Shown here in pieces: positions 1 through 22,752 of a stretch of DNA of 22,752 nt. How positions within the stretch are numbered: the stretch's first letter is position 1; the number at the start of each line of letters is the position of its first letter. This DNA is from Intoshia linei. Lineage: Eukaryota; Orthonectida; Rhopaluridae. The translations under genes and the position numbers were made by a program. The notes below the pieces were generated by a model that was not told the origin of the DNA, did not search any database, and saw only the letters and a list, made by a program, of their open reading frames with translations. The stretch lies in assembly GCA_001642005.1 (NCBI GenBank), contig LWCA01000613.1:1-22752 (forward strand), read 5' to 3'.

Positions 1-1410
1 TTCAAAATGTTCATATGGTGGAAGGGTGCACTTTTGATATAAAAATTTGTTCACACCTCTAACATACATACATTTATTAAAAAATTTAAATAACTTTGTT
101 ACTATAATGTTGTCAACTAATATCTTTTGATAACAAACTGTAGAATTAAAAGAGAAGTTTCATGTTGATCACGAAAATTGCAGCTTTTTAATCGTATAAG
201 TCATTCAGATCTTCGAAAAAAGTTTTCTTTTTGTTTTGCCGTTATATTTAGGATAATTAAAAGCAAACACAAAATTTTTATGATGAAATTTATTATTGAT
301 TAAACTAAACCGTTCTATATATTTTTAATTTTTTTGGAATACATTTATGCTACATTACTTTGTACTATAAGAAAATTTACATTCTATTAAATGTTTTTTA
401 AAATTCAGAGAGTCTTAGCGTTTTTTATTAAAAAATTGTAGTTCGAGGTTTTTCGAAATGAATAAAATTTCTGAAATTGAAATTTATACAATTTTTTGCC
501 ATGAAAAGCGTAATTTAGAATGTGTGTCTTTTACATTTGTGGTTTTTTCGTCTTCTCCATAAAAAGAGACACATTTTAAATAACTTTTACTAATATAAAT
601 TAATTAATTCATTATTAATATTTATTTATTAATTATTATATTAATATTAATACTTATTACATAAAAATTCAATTAATAATAAAAATTAAGTATTATTGTA
701 ATAATAAACCCTCCATTAGTGCGGTTAATGTATATATGACATATACCGAACTAATCATGGGTTACCTATATTCAAATATTGAAAATATCGAACTTTTTGA
801 TTCTATTCCTTTTATCAAAAATTGTAATGCTAGATATTTATTTTCAGCTAAATTTGAATCATTATACACGTGAAATTAAATTAATTACTAATAAATTTTT
901 TTTTCTTTACTTTTTTCTAAAAATAAAAATTTTAAATATGATTAAATATTTTAATAAGTATTATGGATTTAAAACTAGTTTAATAATTACCAATGTGCCA
1001 TATTCCTCTGGTTTTAATCTACATCTCCATAATTTATAAATTATTATGTTATTGAATATAAATAACATATCTTTATCACTAAATATATTTATTAATATCA
1101 TATAATAAATCATTAAATATATCAGTAAATACCAATAAAAAATTTTTTATATGAAAAAAATTGCAATTGCAATTGCAAAGTTATCCCTGATTCTGAATTA
1201 TAATTGTGCTATACACTGCATATTATTATTATCACATTATAATGATTATAATTTGGTTATATTGTTTGTTTTAAATTTAAATCATAAAAAAGTAATGTCA
1301 AAATTTATTTTATACACCACACTTCGGGTTCATGCATTAAAACAAAACTGGTACATAATTAGTTGTATCGTAAAGTTAAATTTTAGTCACTAGAAACGTA
1401 TATAACTTAC
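1..1410. other. Low-complexity AT-rich stretch, probable downstream part of the GRAF-like gene
   Basis: No feature here is well supported. The minus strand should hold the rest of the PH domain. Possible fragments are 991-1018 (phase 2, reads LKPEEYGTL) and an open stretch near 410-470 beginning KFYSFRKTSNYN after a TTTCAG. Neither matches the family well. The plus-strand ORFs at 779-1039 and 1151-1393 look like AT-rich noise. A perfect 18-bp palindrome of TTGCAA units lies at 1161-1178. Confidence 0.3.
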
Positions 1411-1505
1411 TTTTCCAAAGTAAATGAAATAAGATAACGTCTAGCGTTAAGAAAATCTTCATAAAAATTTAGTTTTATAACTTTTTTTAATTTTGGAGCT
1501 TTATT
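1411..1505 (-). CDS. GRAF-like exon 11 (PH domain)
   Basis: Ninety-five nt, phase 0 in (AATTAG|AAT), with a consensus donor (GGAAAA|GTAAGT), phase 2 out. KLKKVIKL then ARRYLISFTLE corresponds to V.LKSC........EKRFCFDVEA of the PH domain. Intron 10 is only 43 bp. The donor is the best splice site in the gene, so transcription should continue left, but no convincing exon 12 was found. Confidence 0.74.
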
Positions 1506-4500
1506 CTAATTAAATTAATTTTAATTTTTATAACACTTTTTAATGTACTGTTTTTGTAATAGTGAGTTCTTGACAATCCATGTTATATGATATAAAACAC
1601 TTCATTAGTCGGCCAGCTAAATTTTAGATTATAAAATAACAAAATAAAAGATATTATACAAGTACTAGATCATGGGTTCTTAACCTTTTTTCACTTGGCG
1701 CTCCATAAAATCAATTGAATGAAATTCCATTGATATTTATACACCCAAAAATTTAATAAACTTATATTCGAAAAACATTAATATTATCGCAATTCTATTC
1801 ATCAATTACATTAAAATTGATGTGATGTAAAATTTACATTAATTCGGACATTATAATACATTGCAATGGTAATAAAACAATACTATACTTGAAATTCTAT
1901 TCAAAAGAACCAAAAGTATGTTATTTTATTATTGTATAAATGAGTATTTAGTATTAATACATATTATTATTATTATTTTTATTAATGTATATTTACCCTG
2001 TCATATTAACAAGTTAAACTAACCACGTATAAATTAGTCGTTTACGTAATTTATGTGTAATACACTCATTTGGGAACCGCTGTAAAATTAATATTTTATT
2101 ATAAATTACTTTTTTCAGTCAAATAAAAATAGTTTTTTAATATGGGACAATCTTCATTATAATTTCCAACTGTTTCAATATTCTAAATTGAATTAATCGA
2201 CACTTGTACAATAAAATTACATTTGAATAATATATAAATTATAATTACACTTAAATATTCAATCATGTGTTTATTGATGCCTATTTTTATCGATTTCCAA
2301 TTTTGACGATACTATTTGTATAATTATTATAATATGGTTTATAGGTAACATTATTTATAGATTTCATTAATTCTTTATTATTTTGTGAAAACGTTCGTCC
2401 CATCACTGATGTCTCGTGGAAGTAATTGGTAAAACTTATTAGCATCACTATTATCTATTATAATTTTATTAACAATGTTTGTAATATTAAACTAATATTA
2501 AATATTATTTGATTAATACTGATAGAGTCAATCATGTTCAATTGTAATATTTTTTTATTTCTGATAGAAAAAAATGAAACTTTATTTCTTTCAATAACAA
2601 ATGTACGGTGATTTAATGAATTAGTGATTTTACAGGAAAAAACTGAAAAAATTTCCCGGTTTTTCTATTTCCCCGAATTTCCCGAAAAAATTCTTTCCAA
2701 AAAAAAAAATAAAATTAATTAATTATTATATTTAAGGTAATTTTTTAATACATGTATATTAATAATGTAAACGTTGTATATATTAATACATCAATATTGT
2801 AGAAAATGATTGACGGGAATAATTATGAATCAAGATCAGGGGTGTCATACTCAATTTGCTTGGCGAGTTAAATGTATAAAAAAATTATTACGCGGCGCCA
2901 CAAAAATTTTAATTAATATTAAACAATAATTAATTTATACTTATTTTAATTTATAAAATGAAATAAGAAACAATAATAATGGAATAAGTCTACAACTAAT
3001 GTTAAAATTGTTATTATGAATAAATAAATCATGAAAAATATATGAAAAAACTGTAAAAAAAATAATATGTTTAAAAAATTGCTATAAAAATAAAAATTTA
3101 TATACTAACGCGGCCCGCATAATTGACACTACTGATCATCATATAATAATTTAAAAGATGTAAACCGTTTCACTGACATCAAATTTTAACCGTTCTTCAA
3201 TGTCCAATATATCTGATAAATATTGACATTGCCCTTGGCAATATAGGTTTTGTTCGATGAAATAATTTTTCTAGATTTAATTCATAAATTTAATTAATTT
3301 AAAAGTATTTTAATATATTTAAATAAAAGCTTTTATATCGTAACATATTTTTTCACAAAAAAACCAAATTGCACCTTCAACCAATATATTTATCAGTAGT
3401 TGAAACAACCCTGCATTTGGTATTTGGGTCATAAATGTAACCAAAAATAAGAAAAATTTTTTAATATATTCCTGTTGACAAATTAAAATCTTGATAATCT
3501 GTTTTACTTTTAAGATAGCCGTGTAGCCAATGAAAGGCGAATGGAGAAATATGGATTCTATACAGGTGTACCATACGTCGAATACAAATAATGTTCTCAT
3601 AATGAATTTACAAAATCATATTAATATACTATGTATAAAATTGTAGCAATATTAAAATTATTATTAGTGTATTAAGAAAATTGTATACGAAAAATATAAG
3701 TTGATCATAATGATGATTATAAGTTGATATAAATCATCACTATTAAAAGTTTTCATTTAACAATACTAATATATTAAAAAAACCTCCATATTTGGATTGT
3801 TTTCAAAAGATTTTTTGCTTGATTGTACAAATTTATGCTGTATTGATTCAAACTTCATTCTACGTTTATCACAACTTTTTTTTTTAGACTAACATAAAAT
3901 ATTAGTAAATATACTAGTATATACTAATATGTATAATATATATAAATAACTATCGTATAAAATAATAATGTATAATAGTAAAATTATAATTAATTATAAG
4001 TTAGGATAATACACATTTTTCATAAAAAGGTTAAATAATTTAGTTAAAAGTGTACATTTGTATGTCTATTTATTTGTTGTTTTAGTTTATTTAAGAAAAT
4101 AAGATAAGTCAAGTTTTAAAAATTCCATATTTCTATTGCACTTTTCGAGAGTGATGTTTTATCGCAAATTTGATTTTCAGTAATTGAGTCCTTCAAGGTC
4201 AAAAAATTCAATTATTTTTTTTTTTTAAATTCAAACCCGTCATAGAATTATAAAAAATACACAATCTGATAAAGATTTTAAATTCATCAAAATTATTATA
4301 AATTTTAACACCAAAAAGATAATTTTCACGGTCGAAAACCTAGATTACTCTTTTTATTAAAAATAAAAACAGCCTTGGAATTTTAAAGAAATTTACAATA
4401 ATACAGTTGTATATCCAGTTAACACATACAAAAATTTTCAATCTGACGAAGCGTCGCCTTTACGGTACAAAAAAGCACTTTAGCATTTGTTTTTTTTATT

Positions 4501-7500
4501 TCGAAACTATTTTATTAAAACTAAAAATTTAAATAATTAATATTCCTAAAATTACAAAAAAGGTTTATTCTGATGCATCTTATTCCAGTTGATATAAATA
4601 TAATATTTCGACCACAGAAATTCACGCATTCCCAGTGAAAAATAAGTTTTAATATATTATTAACCAATATTTTACAAATGTTTGAATTAAATTTAATGAT
4701 GAAAATGTAAATGTTCATCCTACGATATCAAAAAAATGTGCATTGAAAGTCTACACCTGTGTTTCCCAACCTTTTTTATGCTAGCCCCTACTTTCACTCT
4801 TAAAAAAATTCCAGGCCCCACTAAAAAAAATTCGAGCGAATTATAATAAAATTATGATAAAAGCAATAGTAATGTATTTATTTTTTAGAATAAATCAGTT
4901 TGTACTAAAACTATTATCAATAATACATAACCAAGGTACAAAGTACAACTTTGCTATTATCATTTTTATATTTATTGCTATGTTGCTAAAATTCACTCGA
5001 AATATGTTTTTAAAGTGCTGATTACGTTTATTATTATTGATAAAAAATAGTTTTTACTCATCGAAAGCAGATACTGAATATACAATATGTATAATACATA
5101 ATTAATAATAATACATGTATGTATATCTAATTTAAATGATTTTTCTTATTTTTCAAAATAAGCGCAGGTCAGGACAGGTAGATTATTATAATTAAAATTG
5201 TATTAAAACCTTTATATCCGATATCGATTCATTGAAATCATCGAGACGGCGATAAATCTGATTTATTAATATTCCTTCCTATTGTATATATACATACATA
5301 TATTCTATATAATAATATAAATGATATTAATACAGTCAATTATGTTCTATATGAACATGAAGGGACCAAGTTTTGATAATGTTTATACTATACTGTAATA
5401 TGAATGGCAATAATAATATAATTAAAAGTTTCGAAATGTCTAATCAATGTTTGTTCAAACAAAATTGTCGTATTCATATTGAGCTGAGTTCATATTTTAG
5501 AATGTTCATATAGAACAGAATTGACTGTATATACAGTCGGACTCCCCTGTCTGCACAAAATTTAGAAATTATGTTCACTATAAGAGTATAGTGAACAAAA
5601 AAAACTTTAAAAATATGGTTTATATCAGACATTGTCAACTCTTTTTCGCTGTGGACCCCAAAAAAATTAAAAAATAATGGCAATTTTTAATAAATCATTA
5701 CATTTGGGTAAAACGAATGATGGTCAAAAGACATGAAGTACTTTATTTTTGCGATATGATAAACTTGATGAACTATTAATATTAATCTTTAACTCGTCAA
5801 TGTTCCTAAAATAGAACATGTTTTGCAGGTATTGTTTACAGTACATTATTAATTGTTTACTACATATTTTATCACATCAATAAAAAGTCTATATTATCTA
5901 TCTTTCCTGTGAAGAATTTATATTTTATATCCGTTGTTTGATGTTTCATAGAATCATGAATATTGACTGATTTTTTGTCCCATTTTCAATTTGAAATTTA
6001 ACTTGGCTCGGTCATAAATTTTAATAAACTAATTAATTAAAACCACTGCTCCTAAAATGGAACAATGGAGGTTTCCCAATAAGTTTTTACACTTTTAAGT
6101 AATTTAATTTAATACCAGAGAATTTACTTTTACATGATTTGCACGTTTTATATTAGTATTTCTAAGACTTTATGTTATTGAAAATGTATATAATATGTTA
6201 TAAATTTATATAATTTTCATGGAGCCCAAAAAAGTGCTGCGGACCGGTTTAGAATGGCTGGTTTATATGATATGCTGGTGAACGATAAGCGAAGCAAGGA
6301 ATGGAAAATTAATATGATCTAATGAAGAATTCTCAAACTTTACCATTTTGAACGATTTTGACGTTTTAAATCTAAAGAATCAAAATTCACAATTTAAGAC
6401 TTTAAAAATTATTAGATTATGTATTTTGTGAAATGTAATAAAAAAATCGCTCCAAATTCGCCCACCGTTGAGAATTCCTGATCTAATACAATAAATAATG
6501 TATAATGTAATTCAAATTTACATGTAAAAAATATATACTCATTTTATTTAAAGTTATTATTCTATGACACAAGACAACAAAAATGAACTTTTTAGTTTAC
6601 TTATGGGGTCTCACCATTTAAGTTGAAAGTGTGACGTCTTCTGAGCAGAACGACATTATTCACGATATTTGGTTTGATCGTTAACGTGTAGTAATTAACC
6701 AATCAACATTTTCATTATCCATATAAACAATTAACACAATTATTTAAATCGGTTAAACTTAAACTATAGTTTTATTGTTAATTTTTAATTGGCTAATTAA
6801 TCAACTTTGACAATCTCAATTGAGATAATTAGATACATCATTCTGCTCCAAATTTAATATACTACCTTTTCTAATAGTCATATTTGGTAAGTAAAATTAT
6901 GTGTTTTGTAGTGTTATTTGATGTGTCCCGTAATAAAATATTCACAAAAATGATAATTATAATTTATTTTCATATATACAGTCAAACTGATCAATAAGTA
7001 ACCTTAAATGTAACATTTTTGACAGATTCATTATTAAACATTTATGTGATTTAACGACAATTTTAAGAAAGGGTGTATATTTCATTTTACTCAGTATTTT
7101 TATGATTTACATATATTAATAAAGTTTAAGTTTAATAAAGCCGACAAGCCGGTTATACAATTTTGTACCATGTTAATAATGTACTATTTTATTTTATAAA
7201 TGATATACCATAGTTTCATGTGATTCGTTAAAGTCTTTTAATAATTGACTGCATGTTGCAAAGGAATCGCCTGAAAAATTTAAACATTTTATGACATTTA
7301 AATTCAAATATTGCGTAATAAACGTTTGAGGATTAATCTACAGACTCTTTGTATATAGCTCTTATGTTAAAACTTCAATAAACCATATTCATTACAATAT
7401 AAAAATATATAAAATGATCATTGGAAACTTTTATTTTAAGGTACAATGTTTAAGTTAAATGTGAATAAAAATAAAAAAATCACTAATAATAAAATATTTA

Positions 7501-8749
7501 AATTTTTTTTAAATATCTCAAAATCTCGAATTCTGGCTATTTACATTATTTTAATTGTACTGAAAGCATCAAAAAAAAATAAATAAAATTCAAAAAAATT
7601 GAGCTAGAAACAAATTTAAAAAATAAACAGTATAACTAAACATGGACAACAATATTATAAAATCGGTACCACGTTTAACAGCTCAAACGCTAATTTCCGT
7701 TAAAATAAAGTTCAGTTTTAATTTTGTAATATATAGTATATATAGAAAACTTTAAATGGTCAGGTTAACTTCACCGTTAGGAGTTGGCCGAAAATATTTT
7801 ACCATATTTATTATTTTAGTAATACTATAATTTTAAGCCCTAAGGATATTTTTTCTAAATACCCATGAGACACCTTACTGTACAATGTGAAATTTTGAAT
7901 TAGTCGTCATTTTTAATTATTTTATAAATTACTAATTTTAATTTCATCTACTGAAACCACATTATCCAAATCAGGTTTAAGTGTTTCCAAAACTTCCGAT
8001 ATCTTTTTTGATATAGAATGAACACCTAAAATTTATAATATTCAAAATAAATTGAATTGCAAATAAATGAAATGACGCATATTAGGATGCAACACCTCAA
8101 AGCAGTTATAATTTAATACTCACATTAACATTAACAGTTAGTTAGATTACGTATATGAGAAAAAGAAAAGTTACTAAACTGACTAATATAAATTATATTT
8201 CTAGAAATAATTACCATTACAAATGAAAAAAACTAATATTCATATACTTTAAAAAAAAATTTAATTAACTTGTAAGTAAGTTGATAGTAAAAAATAAAAG
8301 TTTAAATAAAATAAAATAAAAGTTTTGATCAAAAATTTATATAAGATAACAATAAACTTAAAATGCTGAGCTTATGATTAAACTGCATATAACATAATAC
8401 AATATGTATTCGAAACGCACATTTCCCAGGTTTTTATTTTATAGAAAATTTTGGTATTCATATTTGATTACATATACTTTAAAGTCTAATGATAATATCG
8501 AAATACCAAAATGGCGGTATTGATCTATATCATAACGCAGGCCTAATAATTGAAACCCTGCTATAAACTAATTTTATAAATATAACCTTGATAAGCTTTA
8601 GTATATTCTAAAACCAGATTTGATAATACTTTAATCTTTTTAATAGAAGTTTCGATTGCATTTTCATGAATGGCCAGTTGTTTAGCATACTCTGGTGTAT
8701 AAACAGTGCATTCTGTAAACTCTAGATAATGTTTATTTTCCATTGTCAT
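1411..8749 (-). CDS. GRAF/oligophrenin-like BAR-PH protein, 11 exons, 3' part beyond the window
   Basis: GRAF/OPHN1 proteins (Drosophila Graf; vertebrate ARHGAP26/10/42, OPHN1) bind curved membrane through a BAR domain, phosphoinositides through a PH domain, and inactivate Rho GTPases with a RhoGAP domain. Here eleven minus-strand exons (8587-8749, 7933-8025, 7209-7270, 5210-5278, 3784-3888, 3166-3270, 2350-2454, 2249-2311, 2110-2182, 1549-1616, 1411-1505) join with matching phases and no stop into 1001 nt, about 333 codons. Residues 1-255 follow the BAR helices and 270-333 the first half of the PH domain, at nearly the same length as the family up to that point. Blocks that line up: LEFTEC with HE (exon 1), DEIKI plus DSF (2/3), KFxxxxxKF (5), ILDIEERLKFDVSE against IQEVQExKKFxxVE (6), MKSINN (7), YFYLTEK (9), RRYLISFTLE (11). 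Identity is low, so the gene is divergent. The RhoGAP part is not seen. A recent pseudogene is possible but the clean phases argue against it. Confidence 0.78.
1549..1616 (-). CDS. GRAF-like exon 10 (PH domain)
   Basis: Sixty-eight nt, phase 1 in (ATTTAG|CTGG), phase 0 out (ACA|GTACAT). GRLMKCFISYNMDCQELTIT matches the family strand W.KHYCTYQRDSKQITM, the second and third strands of the PH fold. The usual tryptophan before the lysine is replaced (RLMK). The hAT element at 1671 begins 54 bp upstream of the exon. Confidence 0.74.
1671..2082. mobile_element. hAT-type non-autonomous element, 412 bp
   Basis: Left end CATGGGTTCTTAACC and right end, read inverted, CAGCGGTTCCCAAATG are the diverged CAGNGGTTCYYAA termini typical of hAT elements. 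The flanking 8-mers (tactagat, taaaatta) are too different to be a clear target duplication. No transposase is inside. It lies wholly in the intron between GRAF-like exons 9 and 10. Confidence 0.6.
2110..2182 (-). CDS. GRAF-like exon 9 (start of PH domain)
   Basis: Seventy-three nt, enters in phase 0 (CAATTTAG|AAT) and leaves in phase 1 (AAAA|GTAATT). DCPILKNYFYLTEK matches the family PH entry strand P..MEGYLYVQEK. The next intron contains a complete 412-bp hAT-type element (1671-2082) whose right end is 27 bp from this donor. Confidence 0.75.
2249..2311 (-). CDS. GRAF-like exon 8 (BAR-PH linker)
   Basis: Twenty-one codons, phase 0-0, acceptor AAATAG|TAT and donor AGT|GTAATT. YRQNWKSIK corresponds to TRNRFEGTR, the conserved start of the linker helix after the BAR domain. 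It fills the exact gap between exon 7 (SINN) and exon 9. The intron before it is only 38 bp, short but within the range seen in insects. Confidence 0.66.
2350..2454 (-). CDS. GRAF-like exon 7 (end of BAR)
   Basis: Thirty-five codons, phase 0-0, acceptor TAATAG|ATA and a weak donor AATAAT|GTTACC. The frame stays open past the donor to 2287. It reads LISFTNYFHE, then FSQNNKELMKSINN, matching the family stretch SFxxxxTFYHxG....KDF...L..SIQN without gaps. A second frame is also open here but does not match. Confidence 0.74.
2837..3134. mobile_element. hAT-type MITE, 298 bp, CAGGGGTGTC type
   Basis: Left end CAGGGGTGTCATACTCAATT with GC-richer subterminal sequence (gcttggcgag, gcggcgcc); right end gcggcccgcataattgacactactg, whose inverse is CAGTAGTGTCAATT. 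Flanking 8-mers atcaagat (2829-2836) and atcatcat (3135-3142) agree at six of eight positions, consistent with an old 8-bp target duplication. It has no ORF. It sits in the intron 31 bp past the donor of GRAF-like exon 6. Confidence 0.7.
3166..3270 (-). CDS. GRAF-like exon 6 (BAR)
   Basis: Thirty-five codons, phase 0-0, acceptor AAATCTAG|AAA and donor GAAACG|GTTTAC. The core ILDIEERLKFDVSE aligns position by position with IQEVQESKKFNIVE of oligophrenin. The spacing from SSKK in exon 5 to the N-aromatic pair (NLY here, NFF in oligophrenin) is exactly preserved. This is one of the strongest blocks for the family call. A 298-bp hAT-type MITE (2837-3134) sits just past the donor. Confidence 0.78.
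3271..3783 (-). other. Intron 5 of the GRAF-like gene with a decoy ORF
   Basis: A 93-codon ORF (3319-3600) and a second, stop-broken frame both look faintly protein-like, but neither fits the gene. Exon 5 joins exon 6 exactly across this stretch with family spacing preserved. The stretch may be a remnant of an unrelated inserted coding sequence. Nothing else is recognisable. Confidence 0.45.
3784..3888 (-). CDS. GRAF-like exon 5 (BAR)
   Basis: Thirty-five codons, phase 0-0, acceptor GTTAG|TCT and donor GAG|GTTTTT. It contains KRRMKFESIQHKFVQSSKKS, matching KKKFEK...F........SSKKK in the long BAR helix. A run of ten A residues near its start is a likely spot for sequencing or polymerase slippage; the frame works with ten. 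Confidence 0.72.
4080..4756 (-). repeat. R1 foldback repeat copy a (inverted)
   Basis: Read on the minus strand this copy carries the R1 blocks in order: TGTAGACTTTCAATGCACAT, then CACTGGGAATGCGTGAATTT, TATATCAACTGGAATAAG, GTAAAGGCGACGCTTCGTC, and a tail shared with copy b (TTGCGATAAAACATCACT). The 65-codon ORF at 4521-4718 is a chance reading of it. It lies in intron 4 of the GRAF-like gene. A hAT terminus begins directly at its edge (4757). Confidence 0.7.
4757..4835. mobile_element. hAT-type left terminus, partner end not found
   Basis: CTGTGTTTCCCAACCTTTTT followed by atgctagcccc resembles the terminus at 16740-16781 read inverted (CAATGTTTCCCAACC, atgctggacccc), so both belong to one family. 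It starts right after gtctacac, a sequence that is part of the R1 repeat, so this element appears to have inserted into R1 copy a. No right end was found before the next element. Confidence 0.5.
4836..5209. other. AT-rich intron sequence, nothing recognised
   Basis: This is part of intron 4 of the GRAF-like gene. It may include the interior of the hAT element whose left end is at 4757. There is no ORF, terminal repeat or RNA-like structure of note. Confidence 0.4.
5210..5278 (-). CDS. GRAF-like exon 4 (BAR)
   Basis: Twenty-three codons, phase 0 at both ends, acceptor CAATAG|GAAGG and donor AAAG|GTTTTA. The peptide ILINQIYRRLDDFNESISDI matches the family segment VLI.PLE.FRKEQIG..K. The acceptor has only a TA-rich tract before it. 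A 195-bp Tc1/mariner MITE (5333-5527) lies 54 bp upstream in the intron. Confidence 0.7.
5333..5527. mobile_element. Tc1/mariner-type MITE, 195 bp, TA target
   Basis: The ends are 26-bp inverted repeats (5333-5358 and 5502-5527) beginning CAGTCAATT and ending TATATGAACAT, differing at a single base, flanked on both sides by TA (5331-5332, 5528-5529). CAGT ends and TA duplication are the hallmark of the Tc1/mariner superfamily. There is no coding capacity. The near-perfect ends suggest a recent insertion. It lies in intron 3 of the GRAF-like gene. Confidence 0.85.
5534..5596. mobile_element. Half of a pogo/Tigger-like element with central hairpin
   Basis: It begins TA|CAGTCGGACTCC (TA at 5532-5533), four bases after the previous MITE, and ends in a perfect hairpin: arms GTTCACTATA (5573-5582) and TATAGTGAAC (5587-5596), loop agag. 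Pogo-like MITEs are often near-palindromic with such a centre. The expected mirror half ending in GGAGTCCGACTG is missing, so this looks truncated. Confidence 0.5.
5626..6260. mobile_element. hAT-type non-autonomous element, 635 bp, perfect 8-bp TSD
   Basis: It is flanked by identical 8-mers GTTTATAT at 5618-5625 and 6261-6268. The termini are CAGACATTGTCAACTC on the left and, inverted, CAGCCATTCTAAACC on the right, with subterminal gctgtggacccc and gtgctgcggacc. The 8-bp duplication and CAG ends identify the hAT superfamily. No transposase ORF is present; the 69-codon ORF at 5474-5683 only straddles its left edge. Confidence 0.9.
6324..6480. mobile_element. hAT-type MITE, 157 bp
   Basis: Left end GAAGAATTCTCAAAC and right end, inverted, CAGGAATTCTCAACGG. 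The 7-mer atctaat flanks both sides (6317-6323, 6481-6487). It lies 55 bp beyond the right target duplication of the 635-bp hAT element and also falls in intron 3 of the GRAF-like gene. Confidence 0.7.
6490..7208. other. AT-rich intron 3 sequence
   Basis: No exon, repeat pair or structured RNA was recognised. A strong donor-like string (TTTG|GTAAGT near 6890, plus strand) has no coding sequence before it. TACAGTCAAACTG near 6976 resembles a Tc1/mariner end, but no partner end was found. Confidence 0.4.
7209..7270 (-). CDS. GRAF-like exon 3 (BAR)
   Basis: A 62-nt exon behind a good acceptor (AATTTTTCAG|GC), with donor ATG|GTATAT. Joined to exon 2 it reads DEIKI-S-DSFATCSQLLKDFNE, which parallels [22 protein letters not shown] of oligophrenin without a gap. 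It leaves in phase 0. Codon use includes TGC, CAA and GAC, less AT-biased than the intron around it. Confidence 0.78.
7271..7932. other. Intron 2 of the GRAF-like gene
   Basis: AT-rich sequence between exons 2 and 3. It has one short plus-strand ORF at about 7642-7755 (start MDNNIIKSVPRL, 37 codons) with no splice context or family resemblance, so it is not called. Nothing else was found. Confidence 0.4.
7933..8025 (-). CDS. GRAF-like exon 2 (BAR)
   Basis: Ninety-three nt between the acceptor ATTTTAG|GTG and the donor AATTA|GTAATT, phase 1 at both ends. It encodes a lysine/leucine-rich helix (VHSISKKISEVLETLKP) and ends in VSVDEIKI, which corresponds to the (T)DDE.NI stretch of oligophrenin. 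Alternative donors inside the exon (TCA|GTAGAT and others) are in phase 0 and would not join exon 3 in frame. Confidence 0.78.
8026..8586. other. Intron 1 of the GRAF-like gene
   Basis: AT-rich and without recognisable repeats. It separates the start exon from the second BAR exon. No coding stretch in either direction is convincing. Confidence 0.4.
8587..8749 (-). CDS. GRAF-like exon 1 (start, BAR N-terminus)
   Basis: This is the first coding exon, codons 1-54 plus one base. Translation can start at the ATG at 8749 (MTMENK) or at the third codon. The family entry motif is visible: LEFTEC, a proline six residues later, then HENAIE followed by a lysine-rich amphipathic helix, matching LEF..C...P.F...HE..L in GRAF proteins. 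The donor CAAG|GTTATA ends the exon in phase 1. Reading through reaches a stop at 8561, which is why a 62-aa ORF appears here. Confidence 0.8.
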
Positions 8750-11683: not shown

Positions 11684-11966
11684 GGGCTAATTATTATATT
11701 TATTATATATAATTAATGAGGTGATTGAGTATGATGATTCTTGTATATTTTCTTAATATTAGCCTAATATTAGTAAGAACGATACATGAGAATCCTTCAT
11801 ATCAAATTCAATATCTTGAATTTTTATCATAATTATCATATTATACACTTTTAAAATAAAAAAATTGAATCGAGATGCAAAATGGCTTTTTCTAATTAAA
11901 AAAAAGTTGAAAGCCTAATACATGTATATTAGGGCTGTTCAAAAAAAAAATCTTTGGGCACACCAT
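11684..11966. repeat. 283-bp exact duplicate, copy 1, ends at an assembly gap
   Basis: Identical to 14162-14444 by direct reading, including a run of ten A residues. It stops exactly at the n at 11967, while copy 2 starts exactly after the n at 14161. This is the pattern of overlapping contig ends, not of a biological repeat. Confidence 0.9.
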
Positions 11967-14161: not shown

Positions 14162-14444
14162 GGGCTAATTATTATATTTATTATATATAATTAATGAGGT
14201 GATTGAGTATGATGATTCTTGTATATTTTCTTAATATTAGCCTAATATTAGTAAGAACGATACATGAGAATCCTTCATATCAAATTCAATATCTTGAATT
14301 TTTATCATAATTATCATATTATACACTTTTAAAATAAAAAAATTGAATCGAGATGCAAAATGGCTTTTTCTAATTAAAAAAAAGTTGAAAGCCTAATACA
14401 TGTATATTAGGGCTGTTCAAAAAAAAAATCTTTGGGCACACCAT
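14162..14444. repeat. 283-bp exact duplicate, copy 2, starts at an assembly gap
   Basis: Identical to 11684-11966. Beyond 14444 the sequence continues into the same TATACTTCAAAGTGTG block that is also found at 13551 in the bracketed segment. Confidence 0.9.
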
Positions 14445-16139: not shown

Positions 16140-16377
16140 ATGCAGAATTCATATATAATATTGAGCTTAGTAGTGTCTATAATCGCTTTAAAAATGACAA
16201 TTATTTCCTTTTTAACTGATCATTGGACGGATACAACAGTATACAGAAAACCCTTACTTGAAATTCTGGAAAAAAACTCCCTTAATCCCAATTTGCAAAA
16301 AATATATACCGATCAATTGTATTATTCCAATTACCGAGGAATATTTAGAAAATGTTTCAATAAAGACTATGTTATAG
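16140..16377 (+). CDS. TMEM178-like exon 1 (TM1 and first loop)
   Basis: Seventy-nine codons plus one base from the first ATG of the frame, with a donor ATAG|GTATTT. A hydrophobic segment IILSLVVSIIALKMTIISFL is followed by TDHWTD and, after a charged loop, YRGIFRKCF. Reading into the intron adds five codons before a stop at 16392, so the ORF looks longer than the exon. Confidence 0.8.
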
Positions 16378-18836
16378 GTATTTTATTTTATTAGTTTAAA
16401 CTTTAAAATAAACTACATTTTTTAAATTCACACGATATTGTGTGTCATATTGTGTACATTACTGCTTGGTATGATTAATAGAACATTATGACTACTGAAT
16501 AAAAATTCAGATGAGGACTCCTGGGCCGTATGAGGGCATACTATTCGATACTATTAGATCATCTTATAAAAATTTTTTTTTTTACTACTGAAGGGTTGAT
16601 TAACTCTTAAATTGCAGAGTAACGCTGAAAAAACGTGATTTATGATTATGGTAATAATTTAAAAAATTTCCCCAATAAAAGCTTTCCATTAATAATATAT
16701 TAGAACATGATAGTTTTTATTAAAAAATAGTCAATAAATTTTTAAAGTGGGGTCCAGCATATAAAAGGTTGGGAAACATTGGTTTATGTTATATATTTAG
16801 TTAGCAAGGGCGAATTGGAACAAGACTGTGTATATGAAAATGGATTTGAATTGAGAATGTCTGAAAATAACGTCCACTACGGAAATTATTATGTGATTAG
16901 AATACGTATATAAGTTAAGTGATTTGCCTTTACATTATAATTATTAGATATACTCAGAACGCTAGTTTGCCTTATTTGTCTATCAATCATATTTAATTTG
17001 ATTTCACTTGTTGTAGCCGGATTAGCAGGTGTCAAAAGAAGCAATTACATGTGTAAATTTAAATAATATTTAAGGGATTATATGCAGTCAGAGTCTGACT
17101 ATCTAATTTTGATACAATGAATATTAACTTTCAAAAAATAAAAATATTTATTATACATTACTAATTCCTTAGAAATCAAACGCTGATGTTTTTTCTAAAA
17201 TTATATTCAATGAATTCATACAATTGTATTGCCCAAACATAATTTGTGATGGAATTGCAACTCATCTTTAATTTAACCAATTTATTTTTCAAATATTGAT
17301 CTATTTCCATTAAATTTGAAATTTTATAATAATAATTCCGTATAATGAGGCATACATACGGTCGATTTTGTTACGGCCATTATACGGACCGGCCCTTAAC
17401 CCAGTTGATTCTTGTAAGCATTTGTTAATGAATAGTTATGATCCATCCGGTAGATTGATCGCAAAGTGGTCTAAGTTTTAATTTGAATTTGGTAATTAGT
17501 CCGTATTTTTAAAAATTAAAATAAAAATAATAAAGATATTAATGATAAAATCACTATCTAAAACTCTATTAGCAAATGGGTGTTATTAAATTCTAGGATG
17601 CTTAATTTTTTAATTAAACGGTAATGCACATATATAATTCATTCTGGTAAGTAAAGAATAAATTTGATTCCATATAATATTAAAATTATAAAATTTACAC
17701 ATCCATCAAAACGGATGATTCCTAATTTAAAGTGTTTATTTTTTAAATCGTTATAAACTCTACTTTTAGTTTAATTTAGCATATATCTATGAATCAATCC
17801 GGTTTAATATGAAAAATCACACTAAACATACCTTACATCAATGCTTTTCAACTGGTGTGTCGCCAATGATCTCCAGATGCGTCGCCAATCTTTTTAAAAT
17901 TTATTTAATTTTGTTTTAAACCGAAATGATAACATAATAATAATATCGTTCACGCATATTTTTTAAGACACACATGTATGAATAAATACGCAAAAAAAAA
18001 TGTAAATGTCGTTTAGACAAGTGTAATTTTATGAAATTTAGTTTCCCATTTTTTTTTTTGACGAAAACAATCTTCGTCCACAGACTGTGGACCATAATAC
18101 GTAGTTTGACGATGCACTCTTTCTAATGAAAGTATGGTACCTAAAAAATTACAACGTCATCTAGCTACAACACATTGCCATTTATCATGAAAACGATGAA
18201 TGTATTTTGTGCAATTATTAAAATCTTTCAAAAATCAATGTTAAATTTTTACAAATATAATAAAAATATCAGATAGAGCTCACGGCAGTTACCTGATAAC
18301 TTAAATAGTGGCAAAAAATAAACCATTAAACTCAATCAAAAAAGATTATTAAAGAACCTGTAGAATATATAGCAAAATCCCAGCGAAAAACTGTATTAGA
18401 AAATGGGTTTTTTAAATTCTAAGACTGTTCATTTTTTAAATATACGTAACAAACACAGACATTCAATTTTATATATATTTAAGTAAAGGATGTTGAGCAT
18501 TCATTTTATATACCTTATTTTTGATTAATATTGGAAAAAAATAAATTTCACTGGATTTATAAATCAATGGTTTATTTTTTATTGGTGTGTCGCGAAAATG
18601 TTTGAGATTGAAATGTGTGTCGTCAAACAAAAATGGTTGGAAAGCACTTTGTTACGTATACGAAAATTTGTTAATAATATTCGGAATAAGAATCTTAATT
18701 GAATCTTATTCATAATCAAAAAATCAGAACACTGGATAATTCATTGATTGATATATATTTATCTGGATTGATTGAGATTTTTCATTATTTAATACTTTAT
18801 TAGTAAAAAAAGCTATGGCTCTAGTTTTGATGGCAG
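16140..18836 (+). CDS. TMEM178-like claudin-superfamily membrane protein, first four exons
   Basis: Four exons (16140-16377, 16801-16905, 16948-17028, 18804-18836) join in phase 1 throughout into about 152 codons without stops. Residues 5-25 form TM1, then FLTDHW, a loop with GIFRKCF (67-73) and a second cysteine in KGELEQDC (82-89), then RTLVCLICLSIIFNLISLVV as TM2 (118-137), and KKAMALVLMAG starting TM3. The W...G(L/I)(W/F)xxC...C pattern defines the claudin/PMP22 superfamily. G(I/L)xRKC followed by KGE(L/I)E..C points to TMEM178, an ER/plasma-membrane four-span protein linked to calcium control in vertebrates. The third and fourth spans and the C-terminus were not found in the window, so the gene is partial or has further tiny exons. 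Confidence 0.7.
16740..16781. mobile_element. hAT-type right terminus inside intron 1
   Basis: ggggtccagcat followed by AAAAGGTTGGGAAACATTG is the inverse of the terminus at 4757. The left end of this copy was not found in the 363 bp of intron before it, so the boundary on that side is unknown. It ends 19 bp before TMEM178-like exon 2. Confidence 0.55.
16801..16905 (+). CDS. TMEM178-like exon 2 (first loop)
   Basis: Phase 1 in and out; acceptor ATATTTAG|TTAGC, donor AATAC|GTATAT. It encodes VSKGELEQDCVYENGFELRM, then VHYGNYYVIRI. The KGELE..C block parallels KGEIERC of vertebrate TMEM178 and supplies the second loop cysteine. A hAT-type terminus ends at 16781, only 19 bp before the exon. Confidence 0.7.
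16948..17028 (+). CDS. TMEM178-like exon 3 (TM2)
   Basis: Eighty-one nt after a 42-bp intron; acceptor TTATTAG|ATAT, donor GCAG|GTGTCA. It encodes HILRTLVCLICLSI and FNLISLVVAGLA, a clean membrane span preceded by arginine as usual at TM2 of the family. Reading on without splicing gives VKRSNYMCKFK and a stop at 17063, so a short alternative end is conceivable. Confidence 0.66.
17029..17539. other. Intron 3, first part, nothing recognised
   Basis: AT-rich intron sequence. A perfect 15-bp palindrome AGTCAGAGTCTGACT lies at 17087-17101, 59 bp past the exon 3 donor. No exon or repeat end was identified. Confidence 0.35.
17540..17659 (+). repeat. R1 terminal fragment
   Basis: TATTAAATTCTAGGATGCTT, a short purine-rich spacer, then GGTAATGCACATATATAATTC and GGTAAGTAAAGAAT follow the layout of the R1 3' end. 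It is diverged and lacks the body. Confidence 0.5.
17839..18651. mobile_element. hAT-type element with R1 fragment inside, about 813 bp
   Basis: Left end CAATGCTTTTCAACTGGTGT with gtcgccaatgat; right end, inverted, CAAAGTGCTTTCCAACC, with gtgtgtcgtcaaac and gtgtgtcgcgaaaa just inside. The repeated GTGTGTCG motif on both sides supports one element. The flanking 8-mers (ccttacat, ttacgtat) do not form a clear duplication. It carries an R1 terminal fragment at 18360-18491. It lies in intron 3 of the TMEM178-like gene. Confidence 0.6.
18360..18491 (+). repeat. R1 terminal fragment nested in hAT element
   Basis: CCCAGCGAAAAACTGTATTA, then TAAATTCTAAGACTGTTC and ACACAGACATTCAATTTTAT...AAGTAAAGGAT match the end of R1 copy f closely. 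The body is absent. Either R1 inserted into the hAT element or the element captured it. Confidence 0.6.
18804..18836 (+). CDS. TMEM178-like exon 4 (33-nt microexon, start of TM3)
   Basis: Acceptor TTTATTAG|TAAAAA and donor GGCAG|GTAATA flank eleven codons' worth of sequence, phase 1 in and out, giving VKKAMALVLMAG. This fits the family, where a basic turn separates TM2 from a Gly-ended TM3 start. The small size makes the call tentative. The 1.8-kb intron before it holds a hAT element and R1 fragments. Confidence 0.5.
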
Positions 18837-21660: not shown

Positions 21661-22289
21661 TATGTACTGATTAGGGTGTGCACTTTTTTAAAAAACAAAA
21701 AGTATATTTTCATATAGGTGTGTTTTTGTGTGCTGATCATGAATATGCAAAAATTAATACGTTTAATTCATATTTTCTCCGCCTATTTTTTAAAACGCAT
21801 ACGATATTTATTATTTTATAAATTTGAACTGTGGTTTATTACTTATTAATTTTATATCATTATTACAATTATTACTATTTTTAGTAACGATTTATAGTAT
21901 AGGTAACAATATTAGAAAACGAATGACTAACCGTCAAATTGTTTATTTGATTAGTTGATCGTAGATTAAAAGAAATTAAAAATGTCTAAGCTCAAAAATT
22001 GAAAATTTTGTATTCATCAGATGTCATTTTGTATGACACTGACATAATGTCAGTATTCTAATTTTTAGTTATTTATATCAGTAAATATATATAACAAAAA
22101 TCATTCAAAATCATAATAATCCCAAAAAATAAATTCCATTAGATTATACAGTGTTGTTCAATAGATTATAATAATTGCTTTTTACATATTCTGTGGTTAC
22201 TAATTCACTAATGAGTAAATGAAATTAAATAAAATTTTGAAAATAAGTTACACATATATTTATGTTTAATTCAAATTAATTAATATTTT
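21661..22289. other. AT-rich sequence, nothing recognised
   Basis: No convincing exon of the TMEM178-like gene was found here. A candidate 18-nt open piece between TTTTTAG at 21885 and a GTAACA donor is in the right phase but too short to judge. Confidence 0.35.
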
Positions 22290-22752
22290 GTAATCCCTCC
22301 TTTAGCATGTATGAAATCTGTAATTCATTTCCACCCATTCCCACAGAAGATATATCCCCCAAACCATTACTTTTGTTAGAAATTTTACTGTTTGTATGAT
22401 GATTCGCATGATCTTATGCGCACATTATTACATTGGTTGCCCATCACACAAATCATTGATTCGTCCGAAAAAATAACCTATAAAATTACAAATTAGGTGG
22501 TTTTTATTAATTAGTACAAAATTAATGAATATAATATAATACAATTTATTTTAACTTATTAATAAATAACCTCATTCCATTTATGTTTATTCCAATTTTC
22601 ATGACGTTTTGCCCATAAAAATCTTGTTTTTTTTATTCTCTCAGTAAGGAGGGGTTTTCTTGTTTTTCGGTAAGATCTGTAACCTGCCTCCAATAGATTA
22701 GTCTACGATTAACAGTTAACCTTGACACATTAACATTTTGAGTTTGTAATTT
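22290..22752 (-). pseudogene. Tc1-like transposase fragment with a 93-bp GT-AG insert, runs off the right edge
   Basis: Tc1 transposases cut and paste DNA with a DDE/D catalytic triad. Read on the minus strand the fragment gives NVSRLTVNRRL, AGYRSYRKTRKPLLTERIKK, TRFLWAKRHENWNKHKWNE, then after 22570-22478 VIFSDESMICVMGNQ, and later VMVWG. SRxTVxRRL is the end of the DNA-binding part; the D of FSDES is the first catalytic aspartate. A frameshift near the start, stops after GNQ, and a broken frame past VMVWG show that it is decayed. The second Asp and the Glu lie past the decayed end or are lost. No terminal inverted repeat was recognised. Confidence 0.85.
22478..22570 (-). other. 93-bp GT-AG intron-like insert in the Tc1-like transposase
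   Basis: Removing exactly GTTATT...TTATAG restores WNE|VIFSDES, the standard Tc1 reading. The insert is AT-rich with stops in the transposase frame, and its ends obey GT-AG. It starts with GTTATTTA and the following exon starts with GTTATTTT, so a short direct repeat spans the insert. It may be a true intron or a small insertion with that duplication. Confidence 0.6.

Follow-up and report, generated by a model that had tools for sequence, protein, structure and literature searches.

A probable GRAF/oligophrenin-family gene dispersed over many short exons on a contig of the orthonectid Intoshia linei

The GRAF/oligophrenin family comprises ARHGAP26, ARHGAP10, ARHGAP42, OPHN1 and Drosophila Graf. 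Its proteins have the domain order BAR-PH-RhoGAP, mostly followed by SH3, and the RhoGAPs of GRAF proteins are reportedly autoinhibited through the BAR domain. The ACAP/ASAP and APPL families also start with the order BAR_3-PH; ACAP/ASAP proteins continue with ArfGAP and ankyrin parts, and APPL with a PTB domain. According to one study, BAR and PH of GRAF bind PIP2 liposomes, and Drosophila GRAF inhibits the constriction of the actomyosin ring during cellularization (PMC8081525).

We analyzed one complete contig of Intoshia linei (C492, all 22752 bases, hereafter the window) together with the genome to which it belongs (34.65 Mb in 1319 contigs). The window carries a gene that is like members of the GRAF/oligophrenin family in having a BAR_3 domain of nearly full length, a PH-like part next to it and a probable first RhoGAP exon; GRAF-type RhoGAP and SH3 pieces occur on its sister contigs. 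It is unlike them in its divergence: the protein deposited for this locus, A3Q56_04515, was 19-20% identical to mammalian GRAF1 in one alignment, the PH-like part is too diverged for Pfam, and one RhoGAP stretch of I. linei (on contig C949) has Lys in place of the Arg finger. From sequence comparison, we consider the gene a distant relative within the GRAF/oligophrenin family, with its 5' part on the contig, at a probability of about 0.9. What is new is a corrected member of a known family, the gene itself having been deposited before, unnamed and partial. Searches of a limited literature collection, one for orthonectids together with RhoGAP and one for the locus tag, found no report; the 2016 genome paper may treat the family.

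The earlier note on this DNA described eleven minus-strand segments with GT-AG borders and matching phases that join to 1001 nt without a stop. Since it listed no exons, we used the set whose exon number, ends and summed length agree with the note (exons 1-11 in Table 1). The description was reproduced: the set comprised 1001 nt and 333 aa, was stop-free, had GT-AG at 10 of 10 introns and fitting phases, and ended at 1411. When the translation was compared with the BAR_3 profile, it matched with 67.5 bits (cut-off, 31.7 bits; E 1.8e-18) over profile positions 1-228 of 235. Among open reading frames of 50 aa or more, of which exon 1 was said to be the only one to appear, exon 1 (8561-8749) was indeed listed, and so was most of exon 7 (2287-2448).

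The locus is already public as A3Q56_04515, the one protein-database record matched by the joined protein, an unnamed "hypothetical protein, partial" of 398 aa with a precomputed BAR_3 match. Mapped back onto the contig letter for letter, this model has 14 exons (1194 nt, 8749-490, minus strand). Its first ten exons (896 nt, ending at 1411) are identical to 10 of the 11 joined exons, and the difference of 105 nt between 1001 and 896 is the exon at 2454-2350. Its last two exons are at odds with the paralogs described below; the model runs past 794 on to 766 instead of ending exon 14 there. These comparisons confirmed that the 11-exon join, with its splicing predicted, looks like a real gene, far above chance. 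Our full model of the window has 14 exons (8749-794) on the minus strand, after which the contig ends, and exon 14 is probably the first RhoGAP exon. No stop or frameshift occurs across these 14 exons, and the donors of 6 of the 14 are GTT.

Table 1. Exons of the GRAF/oligophrenin-like gene and a repeat in the window
Feature	Position	Strand	Source or support
Exon 1, start codon and N-terminal BAR (LEFTECTVYTPEYAKQL...)	8587..8749	-	A3Q56_04515; ORF list
Exon 2, BAR	7933..8025	-	A3Q56_04515; phase equal in both paralogs
Exon 3, BAR, 62 nt in 3/3 loci	7209..7270	-	A3Q56_04515; C1290 copy hand-set from deposited protein
Exon 4, BAR, 69 nt in 3/3 loci	5210..5278	-	A3Q56_04515; paralogs
Exon 5, BAR, 105 nt (C701 102, C1290 90)	3784..3888	-	A3Q56_04515; paralogs
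Exon 6, BAR, 105 nt in 3/3 loci	3166..3270	-	A3Q56_04515; paralogs
Exon 7, BAR helix 3, 105 nt	2350..2454	-	Not in A3Q56_04515; paralog exons, control scan, BAR_3 gain
Exon 8, BAR end, 63 nt in 3/3 loci	2249..2311	-	A3Q56_04515; C1290 copy hand-set from deposited protein
Exon 9, PH-like start (NYFYLTEK), 73 nt in window and C701	2110..2182	-	A3Q56_04515; C701
Exon 10, PH-like	1549..1616	-	A3Q56_04515; C701
Exon 11, PH-like (RRYLISFTLE), final exon of the earlier note's model	1411..1505	-	A3Q56_04515; C701
Exon 12, PH C-terminal helix (YKLWRCRLKPEE)	991..1078	-	A3Q56_04515; phase as in C701 exon 12
Exon 13, tentative 28-nt microexon between PH and RhoGAP	889..916	-	A3Q56_04515; C427 candidate
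Exon 14, probable first RhoGAP exon (ENKYLALQFLIKGIESK), 54 nt, weak donor GTTCGA	794..847	-	Exon scan; C427, C949
Last A3Q56_04515 exon, doubtful	490..589	-	Public model only; no paralog support found
Short MITE-like repeat with inverted ends, intron between exons 3 and 4	5330..5530		Genome matches

Exon 7 is open, has GT-AG borders and runs from phase 0 to phase 0. Exons of the same length lie at the same place and in the same phase in both paralogs (C701:11774-11878 and C1290:15930-16034), and exon 7 has 11 of its 35 residues in common with each of them. Against these two exons it scored 65; the controls were 2321 open 105-mers taken from the plus strand and, outside the gene, from the minus strand, and the best of them scored 18. 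When exon 7 was added to the full model, the BAR_3 match rose from 48.6 to 66.5 bits, its extent grew from profile positions 1-188 to 1-228 of 235, and the BAR z-score against human GRAF1 increased from 9.9 to 14.9. That this is a genuine exon, by which the deposited model is to be corrected, is well supported by these alignments. A reading of the raw sequence had caught an exon absent from the public model, and hypothetical orthonectid genes gain names.

Three BAR loci were found in the genome, all of them diverged: that of the window and those on contigs C701 and C1290. When the genome was searched with the BAR proteins of all three loci, no fourth clear BAR locus came up (C1018:67091 appeared at E 0.14). 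A six-frame family search of the genome with BAR_3 gave zero matches despite the three loci, and further BAR genes could therefore be missed; such a search overlooks genes built of many short exons. The C701 gene was modeled from 18 aligner pieces, of which the first 12 were kept (the first extended to an ATG); the other six, which follow the PH and are small or doubtful, were dropped. For C1290, six of 26 pieces were kept (the first extended to an ATG, exon 8 shortened), exon 3 was set by hand from the deposited A3Q56_04831, and the rest were dropped as noise. Exon phases in the window equaled those of C701 in 12 of 12 exons and those of C1290 in 8 of 8, and lengths were equal in 6 of 12 and 5 of 8, respectively; the spliced aligner does not impose phases. 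The paralog A3Q56_04831, of the same exon phases and with BAR_3, is 32% identical to the window gene in 225 aligned codons, and its deposited 267 aa gave no RhoGAP match. The deposited model of this paralog, too, seems to be off, at C1290:15504-15608, where exon 6 appears to end early and KFETSEC to be lost. Amino acid identity among the three loci was 32-34%, which ruled them out as allelic copies. Codon positions 1, 2 and 3 differed at 0.52, 0.39 and 0.59 of 351 codons, with positions 1 and 2 below position 3.

The introns of the window gene measure 561, 662, 1930 and 1321 where those of C701 measure 35, 42, 43 and 43; elsewhere they measure 38, 66, 493 and 43 where C701 has 2108, 737, 921 and 594. 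The median intron of I. linei is given as 57 bp in a review (PMC6543705). The MITE-like repeat between exons 3 and 4 gave 100 rows of matches across the genome, and many of these are full-length copies with 79-90% identity. The many exons are ordinary: their phases are common to the paralogs and only intron lengths differ, in both directions. Fragmentation, which the earlier note had taken as a sign of rapid evolution, reflects shared intron positions together with long introns and is not in itself such a sign.

The PH-like part is the weakest block of the gene. Pfam detected no PH in the window or C701 protein. Compared directly, the window PH gave z 0.7 to the PH of GRAF1 (111/500 shuffles), which is within the shuffles, and with this PH alone none of GRAF1, ACAP1 and APPL1 exceeded them. 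The window PH and C701 PH gave z 10.5, a score favored by the choice of the C701 exons by alignment to the window. The C701 PH, in turn, gave z 7.2 to GRAF1 (0/500 shuffles), 0.9 to ACAP1 and 0.1 to APPL1. The only link of the block to GRAF thus appears to run through the C701 paralog. The earlier note had named both BAR and PH blocks, and the profile search that it proposed for the joined translation recovered the former and missed the latter.

RhoGAP matches were obtained on 15 contigs; the search for GRAF-type RhoGAPs covered C427, C701 and C949, eleven others were translated at the match only, and C257 was left out. Three GRAF-type stretches were found, at C427 minus 17590-16802, C949 minus 31035-28883 and C701:4985-7097. 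The exon lengths were 54, 72, 85, 59, 106 and 160 on C427 and 54, 69, 85, 59, 106 and 160 on C949. Spliced scores against the Graf structure 1f7c, with the opposite strand in parentheses, were 331 (141) for C427, 148 (91.5) for C949 and 166 (85) for C701:1-10400. The nearest solved structure was also 1f7c, for C427 with 129.6 bits (next, 89.4) and for C949 with 53.2 (next, 46.3), the exons of both having been chosen by alignment to 1f7c, which favors this outcome. The C427 stretch matched Pfam RhoGAP with 124.9 bits, and the SH3 pieces downstream, joined by hand, reached 43.4 bits; this more conserved part is in line with the second, conserved Graf gene that the earlier note suggested looking for elsewhere in the genome. 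A short SH3-like piece on C701 from 7617 scored 19.9 bits, below the Pfam cut-off of 21.8. The arginine finger is kept on C427 (GMYRVDG), and Lys stands at its place on C949 (NLYKEDK, 30376-30308, minus strand), where catalysis has possibly been lost.

The 54-nt exon at 847-794 of the window runs from phase 1 to phase 1, like C427:17590-17537 and C949:31035-30982, and scored 15.3 in an exon scan, compared with -6.3 for the best control among 39 candidates. It is probably the first RhoGAP exon. General spliced alignment of the window tail with RhoGAP stayed within the null (39.8 vs 30.5 on the opposite strand), and this reading therefore rests on the exon scan. On C427, a 22-nt candidate microexon lies directly before the first RhoGAP exon and, like exon 13, changes phase from 0 to 1. 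In the window, SH3 is absent and RhoGAP is represented by one exon at most; the exon scan found no arginine-finger exon there, and the place of a C-terminal SH3 is beyond the contig. RhoGAP after the PH scored 88.8 vs 97.5 on the opposite strand for C701 (C701:16726-23680) and 62.8 vs 59.5 for C1290, which was not counted as above; both results are in line with 3' parts that lie on other contigs.

Several RhoGAP candidates were rejected. The last exons of the deposited model could be read as a lost arginine finger in the window gene (SSIFSIFEY vs GLYRIVG); the spliced alignment here was within the null, and the paralogs end that exon 28 nt earlier. The peptide MDSLAFYIIRG at C701:16770 was discarded as a GRAF RhoGAP start, a similar peptide lying at about C701:22390 on what by eye is a dispersed repeat. 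A candidate arginine-finger exon at C701:1608-1688 was too weak (1.5 vs -3.2 for the best control, 31 candidates).

The families with which a GRAF gene might be confused are ACAP/ASAP and APPL, and some observations point to them: the BAR_3 profile is named after APPL, and the window BAR is somewhat like that of ACAP1. With one human reference per family (GRAF1, ACAP1 and APPL1), BAR z-scores were 14.9, 7.4 and 1.6 for the window, 18.6, 3.4 and 4.2 for C701, and 14.2, 0.1 and 1.3 for C1290. GRAF1 thus scored double ACAP1 in the window and the paralogs were more one-sided; with ACAP1 and APPL1 as the only references, BAR-PH was not closest to ACAP, nor BAR to APPL. ACAP1 and APPL1 share the BAR-PH fold, with much lower similarity, and BAR_3 covers human GRAF1 records too. 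A tree built with FastTree from six sequences placed the proteins of the three I. linei loci with GRAF1 (support 0.96), on a common stem of 1.29 and with tips of 0.75 (window), 0.62 (C701) and 0.76 (C1290); support for the window-C701 grouping was only 0.68. Similar tips on one long stem suggest that the whole family is fast in the I. linei lineage; paralogs exist, as the earlier note had proposed, and the window copy evolves no faster than its two sister loci. The predicted structure of A3Q56_04515 (mean pLDDT 49.6; residues 194-398 under 50) has three long helices at residues 19-220, with block pLDDT mostly 58-80 up to 190. It is only supporting, since the input alignment contained four mammalian GRAF1 rows. 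In the structure search, 13 of 13 PDB matches at E <= 0.001 were BAR-PH tandems of APPL or ACAP1, with low TM-scores of 0.27-0.39. When the PDB was searched with human GRAF1, no GRAF chain spanning BAR-PH was found, and the structure search could therefore match none. With the first joined pieces, a PDB search gave nothing but chance matches; with a three-paralog profile, it gave weak APPL1 and ACAP1 matches (E 1.3-3.5) beside unrelated ones. Given further the preference of the C701 PH for GRAF1 and the probable RhoGAP exon after the PH, we regard an ACAP/ASAP or APPL gene as very improbable; BAR_3, z-scores, tree, shared phases, and RhoGAP and SH3 pieces elsewhere argue for the GRAF/oligophrenin homology of the earlier note.

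Another rival reading is a decaying pseudogene, whose exons are recognizable while translation is gone. Decay would fit the long introns, one or more of which holds a dispersed repeat, the partial and predicted state of the deposited model, and the GTT donors; against it, the 14 exons are free of stops and frameshifts, the codon positions are biased and all phases are kept, and we hold decay to be highly unlikely. AT-rich sequence yields many GT-AG pairs, from which open pieces might be joined by chance. The BAR_3 match, the exons of the paralogs and a deposited model that independently has 10 of the 11 exons leave this a negligible probability, and we view it as already refuted.

Three BAR-PH parts and three RhoGAP parts were found, and no contig carried a complete gene; this suggests three genes interrupted where contigs end, and I. 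linei probably has three GRAF-type genes. The window gene would continue at the beginning of C701, the gene at C701:10494-16725 (the second on that contig) in C949, and C1290 in C427, and two of the three genes would then lie in tandem. PH-like pieces on C427 (18223-18164 and 17768-17691), chosen by eye, scored 27.2 vs 25.5 on the opposite strand and were not above it. By analogy with GRAF biology, the BAR dimer would bend or sense the membrane, the PH would bind phosphoinositides, and the RhoGAP, restrained by the BAR, would switch off Rho at the membrane. The parasite has a syncytial plasmodium. Three GRAF genes might have been kept, the tandem pair serving as RhoGAP-dead membrane scaffolds, perhaps in this plasmodium; the idea draws on the Lys on C949 and on the absence of a detected arginine finger for the window gene, likens the proteins to Drosophila GRAF restraining ring constriction in the cellularizing embryo, and seems to us doubtful, probably wrong. 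A single family ortholog is described for Drosophila in one report (PMC8067379), compared with three loci in I. linei. For an animal so strongly reduced, three GRAF genes are a modest surprise. If the three-gene picture is true, copies of a membrane-shaping Rho regulator multiplied in a lineage whose body plan has largely been lost, and the catalytic residue has apparently disappeared from one copy or more, which raises a question about Rho control in the parasite.

Elsewhere in the window, an exact 283-bp duplicate occupies 11684-11966 and 14162-14444, and each copy touches a single N (11967 and 14161). It looks like an unmerged overlap of contigs within the scaffold, and the 2.2 kb between the copies may therefore be misplaced. 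The stretch at 22280-22752 (minus strand) resembles by eye a stop-broken remnant of a Tc1/mariner transposase; a 39-aa piece of it had no Pfam match. At 16140-16394 (plus strand), the start of a possible claudin/PMP22-like membrane protein gene was seen, with a weak Pfam match to Claudin_2 at E 0.008, under the cut-off.
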